Positions 26,963 to 34,171 of a stretch of DNA of 34,171 nt are shown piece after piece. This DNA is from Candidatus Gastranaerophilales bacterium (GTDB taxonomy: Bacteria > Cyanobacteriota > Vampirovibrionia > Gastranaerophilales > Gastranaerophilaceae). Location of the stretch: assembly GCA_947857085.1 (NCBI GenBank), contig CANUDF010000013.1:1-34171 (forward strand), given 5' to 3'. The notes below the pieces were generated by a model. That model made no database searches. It had not been told where the DNA came from and saw only the letters and a program-made list of their open reading frames with translations. How positions within the stretch are numbered: the stretch's first letter is position 1; each line of letters opens with the position of its first letter. The position numbers were made by a program, and so were the translations under genes.

Positions 26963-28012
26963 TCATTTTATAATACAAAGGATTTTATTGTATCCGTAAT
27001 TATTACCGTGATCAGGGGAAGAATGATCCAGCGTAAATACCCGTCCCCAGCCCCTGCCGGATATATCCTGTCCACCCCATTCCGTAACTTCTTCATTAGA
27101 CCATAAGAAAAACTGTTCCTCTGTAGCCAATGTTGGCAATCCATATGAAGCGGCAAGTTCTGCATTAAATTTACCGTCTATCCTTTTATCTGCTGCGGCC
27201 TGGCCGCCATATAACTTTGAAGCTATTTCTGCAAGCTGAGCTCTTGACGGCAAATTATCAAGTCCGCCGCAAGTTTTTACAGCACCTGCCCAGTAATTAT
27301 GTTCATCATTACAAGAAATTCCAAGTTCATCTTTTAAGGCCTCACATTCAGCACCAGATAGGCCAATACCATTTAATGCGGCACTATAACATGTACCATT
27401 AAGTTTAAACGCACACAGCCCATTAAGGCTCAATACATTAAGGCTTCGTAAATCTTTTCCGCTTGTGTTTGGGCTTTTAAACCCTGATGTATCATATAAT
27501 ATTGCCAGACAGTCACTTCCGGTTATCTGATTACTGTATGGGTCTTGTCTACAGTTGGGGTTATATGCAATTAACCCGTTAATACCGTTTGCAAATTGTA
27601 CACCTACCAGCTCAGTATTCCATTCAAGACCAAAATGACTTGATGATTTGAAAGTTGACAGATTAACTTCTGAAACATCCTGGTCTCCGCTGCCCCAATA
27701 AACTTTTTCAGAAAAACAGTTTGTCAAATTACTGCTGCATATTTTAGTAATTTTAATATGTTTTGCTAATTCATTCACAAAATCTTTTGTATTTTTATAT
27801 CCAGCAAGAGTTTGCTGTGTATTCATCACGCGGGTAGCTTCTTCTAACTTTCTCTCAAAAACTTGTGCTGAAGTATTCCAGGATTTATTCTGATAATTTT
27901 GTACAAGTGCAGGTATAGTTAAAGCGGCTACAACACCTATAATAGCTAAAGTTATAAGAACTTCAGCTAAGGTAAATCCCTTAGACCATAAGTGACAAGA
28001 ACTATAATTCAT
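26963..28012 (-). CDS. Prepilin-like surface protein with type IV leader
   Basis: 349 residues from the ATG at 28012. The leader MNYSSCHLWSKG is followed by the prepilin peptidase site G|FTLAEV and a hydrophobic helix (LITLAIIGVVAALTIPALV). This is the N-terminus of type IV pilins and type II pseudopilins; the Glu of FTLAE is the usual Glu5. The exported domain shares MNTQQTLAGYKNT and DPYSNQITG...SCLAILYDTSG with the 1-849 gene. The C-terminal part (LPSRAQLAEI, FFLWSNEE, GRVFTLD) resembles DUF1566/Fib_succ_major, which is inference. This start has no Shine-Dalgarno but lies 9 nt after a perfect -10 box. An upstream ATG at 28116, with a strong Shine-Dalgarno, would read into this frame only if the G9 run at 28081-28089 had ten Gs. 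TTG at 28021 is also in frame. Confidence 0.85.
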   Translation of the reverse strand: MNYSSCHLWSKGFTLAEVLITLAIIGVVAALTIPALVQNYQNKSWNTSAQVFERKLEEATRVMNTQQTLAGYKNTKDFVNELAKHIKITKICSSNLTNCFSEKVYWGSGDQDVSEVNLSTFKSSSHFGLEWNTELVGVQFANGINGLIAYNPNCRQDPYSNQITGSDCLAILYDTSGFKSPNTSGKDLRSLNVLSLNGLCAFKLNGTCYSAALNGIGLSGAECEALKDELGISCNDEHNYWAGAVKTCGGLDNLPSRAQLAEIASKLYGGQAAADKRIDGKFNAELAASYGLPTLATEEQFFLWSNEEVTEWGGQDISGRGWGRVFTLDHSSPDHGNNYGYNKILCIIK

Positions 28013-28021
28013 AATGACCAA

Positions 28022-28050
28022 ATTATAGTACCAGTCCAGAAATTTGTCAA
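28022..28050 (-). promoter_or_regulatory. Exact-consensus sigma-70 promoter inside the prepilin 5' region
   Basis: Minus strand: TTGACA (28045-28050), a spacer of exactly 17 bp, TATAAT (28022-28027). Both hexamers are perfect. The expected start point is near 28015, three bases before the ATG at 28012, giving an almost leaderless mRNA. Confidence 0.7.
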
Positions 28051-28068: not shown

Positions 28069-28116
28069 TTAGCTGTGACGCCCCCCCCCGAGATCCCTAA
28101 TAAAAAACTTTTTCAT
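28069..28116 (-). CDS. Short upstream frame with G9 run, possible off-phase prepilin start
   Basis: AGGAGG lies just upstream of the ATG at 28116, the best ribosome site near this gene. The frame reads MKKFFIRDLGGGRHS and stops at TAA (28069-28071). The three glycines are the G9 homopolymer. With one extra G the frame continues without a stop through 28012 into the prepilin, giving a 47-residue leader before G|FTLAEV. With 11 Gs it hits TAG soon after. So this is either the OFF state of a phase-variable gene, a decayed original start, or a sequencing error in the run. Confidence 0.55.
   Translation of the reverse strand: MKKFFIRDLGGGRHS
28081..28089. repeat. C9/G9 homopolymer tract
   Basis: Nine C on the plus strand (nine G on the coding minus strand), a few codons after the ATG at 28116. 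Runs of this length are striking in such AT-rich DNA; the only other one seen is at the window end, in the same type of gene. Confidence 0.9.
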
Positions 28117-28137
28117 GGCTCCTCCTTTTTCCTTTTG

Positions 28138-33326: not shown

Positions 33327-34171
33327 TTAATCTATACCGCCGGAATGCGAACCATCACGCCCGCAAGACCAATAGGAGTCTAATGACGTGTCTTTATCAC
33401 AACTCCATTTATCAGCACAAGTAAAGCCAACATGTAAATCGTCATTCCAGGTACAATTTTTGTATGAAGTCCAATTGCCTGAAACACCGCTGAAAGAAGT
33501 ATAATTTTCATCATCCCAAACAAAGGTACCGGTTCCAAACCAAACATCTATAGCATCAGGTAATGGAGGAGCTTGAATATTATTTATAGATATATCTCCA
33601 AACTTTTTAATATCTTTTTCAAGCGAATTAGGGTTTCTTGTACCATTCACATCATACAACATAGCTACACAAGATGTGACTTTACTTGTGATATTGGTAT
33701 ACGGGTCCACAGCAACACAATTTTTATCATAAGTAATTAACGCAGAAACACCGCTGTCAAACATTAAGCCTAATACATTGGTTCCCCACTCAGATAATCC
33801 CAATTTAGCACTTGTTTTTAAATCTGCAACCTCATATTCATCTCCGTCAAATTCAAATTTTTCACCAAAACATGATGTTAAATCATCTTTATCACAAATT
33901 TTTCCGATTTTCATATTTTTAGAAAATTCATTAACAAACTCTTCTGTAGTTGAAAATCCTGCTATTTGCTGATTAACATTCATAACCCGCATTGTTTCTT
34001 CAAACCTGTTACGGAAAACTTTATTTGCAGAATCCCAGCTCTTTTCATTGATGTTTGAAACAAGCGTTGGTATTGTAAGTGCTGCAACAACACCGATAAT
34101 TGCTAAAGTGATTAACACTTCAGCTAACGTAACCCCCTTGCTGTTACTACTTAGAGGAGATGCCCCCCCCC
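33327..34171 (-). CDS. Prepilin-like surface protein, cut by the window end
   Basis: At least 280 residues, open to the last base. The visible leader reads GGASPLSSNSKG and then G|VTLAEV with the helix LITLAIIGVVAALTIPTLV, so the prepilin peptidase site is intact. The ATG is beyond the window; the G9 run at the edge encodes leader glycines. The exported part shares the MNVNQQIAGF block, KIC...TSCF and DPYTN...SCVAMLYD with the other two paralogues. Its C-terminal ~80 residues are Trp-, Asp- and Cys-rich (VWFGTGTFVWDDEN, CTWNDDLHVGFTC, SYWSCGRDGSH) and unlike theirs, so only the pilin part is shared. An internal GTG within VLITL is not a sensible start, since it would remove the leader. Confidence 0.83.
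   Translation of the reverse strand, partial: GGASPLSSNSKGVTLAEVLITLAIIGVVAALTIPTLVSNINEKSWDSANKVFRNRFEETMRVMNVNQQIAGFSTTEEFVNEFSKNMKIGKICDKDDLTSCFGEKFEFDGDEYEVADLKTSAKLGLSEWGTNVLGLMFDSGVSALITYDKNCVAVDPYTNITSKVTSCVAMLYDVNGTRNPNSLEKDIKKFGDISINNIQAPPLPDAIDVWFGTGTFVWDDENYTSFSGVSGNWTSYKNCTWNDDLHVGFTCADKWSCDKDTSLDSYWSCGRDGSHSGGID
34163..34171. repeat. Homopolymer of at least nine C/G at the window end
   Basis: The window ends inside a run of C on the plus strand (G in the coding strand of the third prepilin-like gene). Its true length is not known. Position in the leader matches the G9 tract at 28081-28089. Confidence 0.9.

Follow-up and report, generated by a model that had tools for sequence, protein, structure and literature searches.

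The window analysed here, a stretch of 34171 nucleotides, is contig C13 of a genome of 1.75 Mb in 88 contigs (99.6% complete) from a member of the Gastranaerophilales, a gut bacterium and non-photosynthetic relative of the cyanobacteria. Three related prepilin genes lie in it, in agreement with the count given in a preliminary description of this DNA. The first, at positions 1–849 on the plus strand, is missing its N-terminus at the contig start and is 56% identical over 216 amino acids to the second, a downstream open reading frame at 26963–28021 on the minus strand that scores above cut-off with both PF07963 (25.5 bits) and TIGR02532 (27.7 bits). The third (33327–34169, minus strand) is 47% identical to this second, middle prepilin; its mature part (VTLAEVLITLAIIGVVAALTIP..., 33327–34133 with the stop codon included) also exceeds both cut-offs (PF07963, 26.4 bits; TIGR02532, 22.6 bits). 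The hallmarks of a type IV prepilin, G or A followed by F-T-L-A-E and a hydrophobic helix, were found in the second and third proteins.

The third gene runs leftward from the right end of the window, whose final nine bases, C9 on the plus strand, are G9 on the coding strand (34163–34171, minus strand). After this run the prepilin frame continues as A-S-P-L-S-S-N-S-K-G up to the cleavage site (34134–34163, minus strand, the alanine codon taking the last G of the run) and then as V-T-L-A-E-V-L-I-T-L; the preliminary description had read the run and the segment behind it in the same way. Pattern searches of the contig, for a longer run and for H-G8 at this end, found no base past 34171; it is therefore the assembly itself, and not the window alone, that stops within the run, and the real length of the run may exceed nine.

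A second run-bearing leader precedes the middle prepilin. Its Shine-Dalgarno (SD) sequence and start codon (AAAGGAGGAGCC with ATG, 28114–28128, minus strand; AGGAGGA at 28126–28120, ATG at 28116–28114) open a leader that begins MKKFFIRDL and reaches a G9 run at 28081–28089 (minus strand). At its assembled length this run is not in the prepilin frame; ten Gs would put it in frame, and the leader then reads GGG-ASQLTSHSKGF. It is this ten-G phase that links the open reading frame to the ATG at 28116; a near-leaderless ATG lies at 28012. The ten-G reading had been given correctly before, but the first of the two SKG-F steps in this leader had then been taken for the cleavage site; the real motif, F-T-L-A-E-V, is the second, at 27976, and is preceded by an extra stretch, FDKFLDWYYNLVIMNYSSCHLWSKG. 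Between run and cleavage site lies a perfect sigma-70-type promoter sequence (TTGACA-N17-TATAAT, 28022–28050, minus strand) with an ATG close downstream. The leader at 28116 and that of the third locus match at 73% over 37 nt, and the proposal that the two are homologous stands.

The same arrangement recurs elsewhere in the genome. An H-G8 search found about 94 runs of eight or more Gs, and analysis of the stretches around each run in both orientations identified at least 66 distinct loci with a run (54 of G, 12 of C) that follows a start codon and precedes a prepilin cleavage motif. The order is start codon, leader of about 5–13 codons, homopolymer, another 4 to 89 codons and F/V T L/F A E. 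The homopolymer had been proposed as a feature common to the family, and a genome search for other tract-bearing paralogues, with run length set against frame, had been called for; the proposal is borne out by these loci, and neither of the outcomes named beforehand as refuting it was encountered, although the preliminary description underestimated the scale and missed the version with a C run (MKTITTKAVQAV-C9-...). A clear SD-ATG stands ahead of the run in 62 of the 66 loci, the few others having a start codon past the contig end or no clear SD-ATG, and a promoter-like site is present within 110 nt upstream of the run in 43. Additional runs at contig ends share the leader and are cut off ahead of the motif. 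A motif search returned 95 FTLAE-type sites in the genome, and most of the run-free ones were checked: about 12 are ordinary prepilins with an SD-ATG 4–23 codons ahead of the motif (for example SD-ATG-KKGFTLAEV), which provide an internal control, and several of the remainder either are truncated at a contig end or match by chance.

The encoded proteins are diverse beyond their N-terminus. Clustering of the 53 complete mature prepilins (203–463 aa) gives 49 groups at 70% identity and leaves all 53 separate at 90%; the first 28 residues of these proteins have a mean identity of 77%, and the median is 32% for hits over at least 70% of the length. Assembly machinery is encoded in the same genome, with the prepilin peptidase (PF01478) found once and T2SSE ATPases (PF00437) four times, all above cut-off. 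Two MutS-family genes are present as well.

From run to motif the prepilin frame is open in all 66 loci, with no stop in 1971 codons, whereas the other two frames contain 126 and 258, and composition-shuffled intervals left 15.4 loci open on average and 23 at most. In a first set of relatives from several genera the frame was open in 71 of 71 loci, with leaders that have little sequence in common between genera (MQTMIEI-G12-PENKLLVGKKIGFTLAEV, MKKLLKDAY-G11-TGLVSFSSAFTLAEV and MNKLNLNL-G11-SRSLKAFTLAEV). These counts bear on the possibility that the run belongs to an upstream leader ORF or non-coding element, that the pilins start downstream of it and that the frame relations are incidental. 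Around 20 of the 66 loci (for example L056, L060 and L088) do have TTGACA/T-N17-TATAAT between run and motif, most with zero or one mismatch, and about six of these also have an SD and ATG 5–9 codons from the motif; judged by these sequences, such loci may have a second, run-independent start, and run-independent production from them is therefore possible. However, about 45 loci lack such a promoter and mostly lack a proximal ATG as well, the frame is open over up to 89 codons and free of stops in that frame only, and an irrelevant frame predicts that near one third of the loci should be in frame as assembled (ON), where half that proportion is observed. We regard a general downstream start as highly improbable.

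As assembled, only about 15% of the loci of this genome are in frame. Counted from the best SD-ATG, nine are ON, 42 are one base short (in need of +1), 11 are one base long (in need of −1) and four have no clear SD-ATG; a larger set from relatives (n = 157) has 22 ON, 68 one base long and 67 one base short. Among 118 dereplicated leaders 20 are ON, where independence of length and required frame predicts 39.7 (0/5000 permutations), a depletion which implies that selection sees the frame, with the proviso that the lack of independence among paralogues and among related species makes the P values optimistic and that their exact values should not be relied on. A mistaken choice of start would move the ON count up to the expectation and not under it. 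Of 236 OFF frames, 207 meet a stop within 45 nt, compared with 138 (maximum 155) in shuffled sequences. The frame is thus apparently of consequence to the cell, the OFF frames soon run into a stop and OFF appears to be the commonest state of a locus. Two of the features by which SSR phase variation is recognised were found: a homopolymer of at least eight in frame near the start, at the 66 loci, and a single length class modulo three that gives the full protein while the others stop early.

The OFF loci of this genome are unevenly divided, 42 of the 53 being one base short, and this one-way excess could reflect shared ancestry, a homopolymer error systematically of one base, or a programmed shift. 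A programmed shift, by frameshifting or transcriptional slippage, would make a run of fixed length a recoding signal, with most or all copies constantly expressed at a fixed low level. Slippage is known to occur at long runs of G or C, run lengths are narrow inside a leader class, and the 42 loci all need the same +1 correction. A recoding site, however, normally holds one conserved slip direction, whereas several lengths and more than one phase occur here inside a single leader class, the OFF frames are closed by stops right after the run, and the needed direction varies by leader class and genus, the relatives being OFF equally in both directions; because of this variation we consider programmed frameshifting unlikely. 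The equal division among relatives also argues against an assembly or sequencing artefact, in which homopolymer length errors would make in-frame leaders seem out of frame. Such errors would fit the excess of short runs in this genome and the assembly breaks at runs described below, but they would push all classes one way; moreover, runs recur in dozens of independent assemblies and studies (among the matches listed), and the run sits in the leader whatever its exact length. To this artefact we give the least credence of the explanations weighed.

The observed anatomy of the loci, the conservation of frame, the three phase classes, the depletion of ON, the early OFF stops, the diversity of the mature pilins and the presence of pilus machinery point instead to slipped-strand translational phase variation of a very large and diverse type IV prepilin repertoire, comprising at least 66 contingency genes, and we hold this reading, drawn from sequence, with considerable confidence. 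Slipped-strand mispairing is the cause of length change in the homopolymer contingency genes of Neisseria and Campylobacter (PMC5953494; PMC6321876). Translation would begin at the SD-ATG, proceed for about 5–13 codons and then cross 8–15 Gs or Cs. In the ON state, one length class modulo three, it would run on across a leader of between 4 and about 90 residues and enter the type IV prepilin, and the prepilin peptidase would remove the leader between G/A and F; in the OFF state, the other two length classes, it would usually stop within about 45 nt of the run and yield a short peptide. Replication slippage in living cells, at whatever rate it occurs, would alter run length by one and flip single genes independently, so that expression would change gene by gene and each cell would display on its pili only a small part, itself changing, of a large and highly dissimilar set of pilins. 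The selective reason may lie in host immunity, phage or attachment.

Downstream of the run, many leaders carry a segment complementary to the SD of their own gene. CTCC or CCTC occurs within 40 nt after the run, mostly at 10–15 nt, in 59 of the 118 dereplicated leaders as against none of 12 ordinary SD genes, and the segment varies with the SD between genera (GGAGAG with CTCTCC, TAAGGAGCT with AGCTCCTTA, GGAGGTTAA with TTAACCTCC; example loci are L183, L184, L117, L240 and L171). Complementarity between a gene's own SD and anti-SD exceeds that of permuted pairings (0/2000), and the two bases beside the anti-SD core covary with those beside the SD (1/5000). Computed folding did not place SD accessibility below that of shuffled sequence, and a general thermodynamic sequestration of the SD by a hairpin is on this comparison unsupported; perhaps the G run itself is able to pair with the same pyrimidines, which would account for the null result. 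The anti-SD segment may be a second layer of control or a by-product of how the leaders originated. We put forward only tentatively, and with some doubt, a two-layer switch in which ON ribosomes would melt the hairpin and OFF ribosomes would stop near it, keeping the repertoire tightly OFF with few pilins per cell.

Several classes of leader can be distinguished in the genome. Class A reads (M)KELLNMKL-G9-SPLSRKEEGF and is in frame at ten Gs, class B reads MKTITTKAVQAV-C9-SYTSGLGFKGFTLAEV and is in frame at ten Cs, class C reads MGANTHYHYFAS-G10/11, and class D is a mixed group whose later part (FDKFLKSDYNSNIMNYKSG) holds a near-perfect or perfect TTGACA-N17-TATAAT. Class B, which has no ATG beside a G run, was considered as a different element and ruled out as such; it has the same design with a C run, on the other strand. 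Inspection by eye found no matching flanks that would indicate DNA inversion between G-run and C-run leaders, and a search with Rfam found no RNA element in the leaders.

Many leaders contain in-frame repeat inserts (CHCEGAKRLSQSHYR..., AEPRQHIRHWSKGFTLAEV). Dispersed repeats, CHCEGAKRLSQSHYR... or RQHIRHWSKGFTLAEV, lie in frame between run and cleavage site at L037, L064, L093, L094, L104 and L105, and some of the dispersed leader repeats duplicate the FTLAEV motif. A removable leader may tolerate such insertions, yet the frame is maintained. Rickettsia palindromic elements and similar repeats are also found in frame within genes, as are the repeats reading CHCEGAKRLSQSHYR... here; unlike those elements, the repeats here are in the leader part, which would be cleaved away.

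The distribution of the arrangement was followed with a pattern of G8 and then FTLAE-type codons within 8–38 nt. Being narrow, this pattern passes over every C run and the leaders whose inserts are longer, and the genome counts obtained are lower bounds: 12 of 16 genomes of the genus, 73 of 383 genomes and 14 of 52 genera in the order and, in a phylum-wide draw, 49 of 386 genomes, all of them from the same family as the source organism. No match came from ten genomes that belong to its class but not to its order, nor from about 200 genomes of other classes. A control with the pattern read backwards gave zero in every genome searched, which places the arrangement far above chance. A GTDB-wide scan returned, among the matches listed, gut records named as Gastranaerophilales, Melainabacteria or “Cyanobacteria bacterium,” bins named “uncultured bacterium,” and one “Fusobacterium sp. 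CAG:439,” which we take to be a misnamed melainabacterium.

In the assembled sequence run lengths range from 8 to 15 among paralogues. Length variation, or a repeat shared by many paralogues, had been suggested to be compatible with a contig that ends in the run, and the contig ends are consistent with this: 14 of 176 lie within 60 bases of a run, as against about 0.6 expected, and two pairs of ends differ in nothing but run length. The ends of C7 and C45 belong to the same locus, not a recognised prepilin, with 44 + 30 identical flanking bases and runs of G10 and G11, and those of C25 and C36 belong to one prepilin leader, with 43 + 7 identical flanking bases and runs of G11 and G12; both pairs are assembled contigs, in which PCR or sequencing stutter could give the same difference. 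Breaks at runs could match the behaviour of an assembler on a mixed population, with paralogue repeats adding further breaks. A G run that follows SD-ATG-MKELLNMNF closes contig C15 (G000:C15:1-8, L052). This is the only class A contig end without downstream bases and is a likely candidate for the neighbour of the right end of the window; a join of C13 to C15 would put the leader in frame at ten Gs.

Several known systems resemble this one in part. In Neisseria, pilC, encoding a PilY1-type pilus tip adhesin, has a poly-G tract early in its reading frame. As there, the prepilin genes have a G run early in a type IV pilus-related gene, with ON and OFF that would be set by length modulo three; the two are not homologous, however, and one or two tip-adhesin copies there compare with at least 66 prepilin genes here. 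pilC is counted within the Neisseria phasome, which has a maximum of 54 putative phase-variable loci of all kinds per genome (PMC5953494). Strains of Campylobacter have 5–81 putative phase-variable genes, and their poly-G/C phasome is likewise one of dozens of tracts in an AT-rich gut bacterium with mostly surface functions (PMC6321876), but it is spread over many families, whereas in the present genome most tracts belong to a single family and share one position, the prepilin leader. In gonococcal pilE/pilS and the pilin inversion of Moraxella bovis a type IV pilin subunit is also varied from a repertoire, by means of an expression site together with either RecA gene conversion or site-specific inversion (PMC11868660); by contrast, almost all copies here seem to be equipped individually with an SD, a start codon and a switch. 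An organisation of the pilE/pilS type, with a single expression locus and promoterless silent cassettes, was considered and rejected on the SD-ATG and promoter-like site counts given above (62/66 and 43/66).

The mechanism of SSR translational phase variation is known already. What looks new, being unmatched in the literature searched (most subscription journals and preprints lay outside the search), is the scale, the gene family with its prepilin leader, the lineage and the OFF bias; within the same scope no paper joins phase variation with the Gastranaerophilales, and the only phase-variation paper that includes Melainabacteria is a flagellin survey. If the reading is correct, this repertoire is among the largest single-family contingency repertoires known, with about four genes per 100 kb, all of them pilins, and is held by a gut lineage that is common, though little studied. 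It would account both for the abundance of prepilin genes in the genome and for the breaks in its assembly, and metagenome reads that already exist would allow a direct test of commensal surface variation in the face of host antibodies or phages. The action of selection on phase can also be tested at the population level through the OFF bias seen across genera.

Some individual runs are of separate interest. The longest one found in the genome is a G15 run, in frame, at L066 (1575-1589 on the plus strand; a minus-strand run of G000:C29), of a length that would in principle suffice for an intramolecular G-quadruplex. About 12 G or C runs lie in or beside genes that are not recognised as prepilins (L100:1535-1544, L047:about 1514-1523, L084:1553-1561, L090, L069 and L101), one of which encodes a long, repeat-rich “GGAIYVG” surface-type protein; these are possibly further phase-variable genes.
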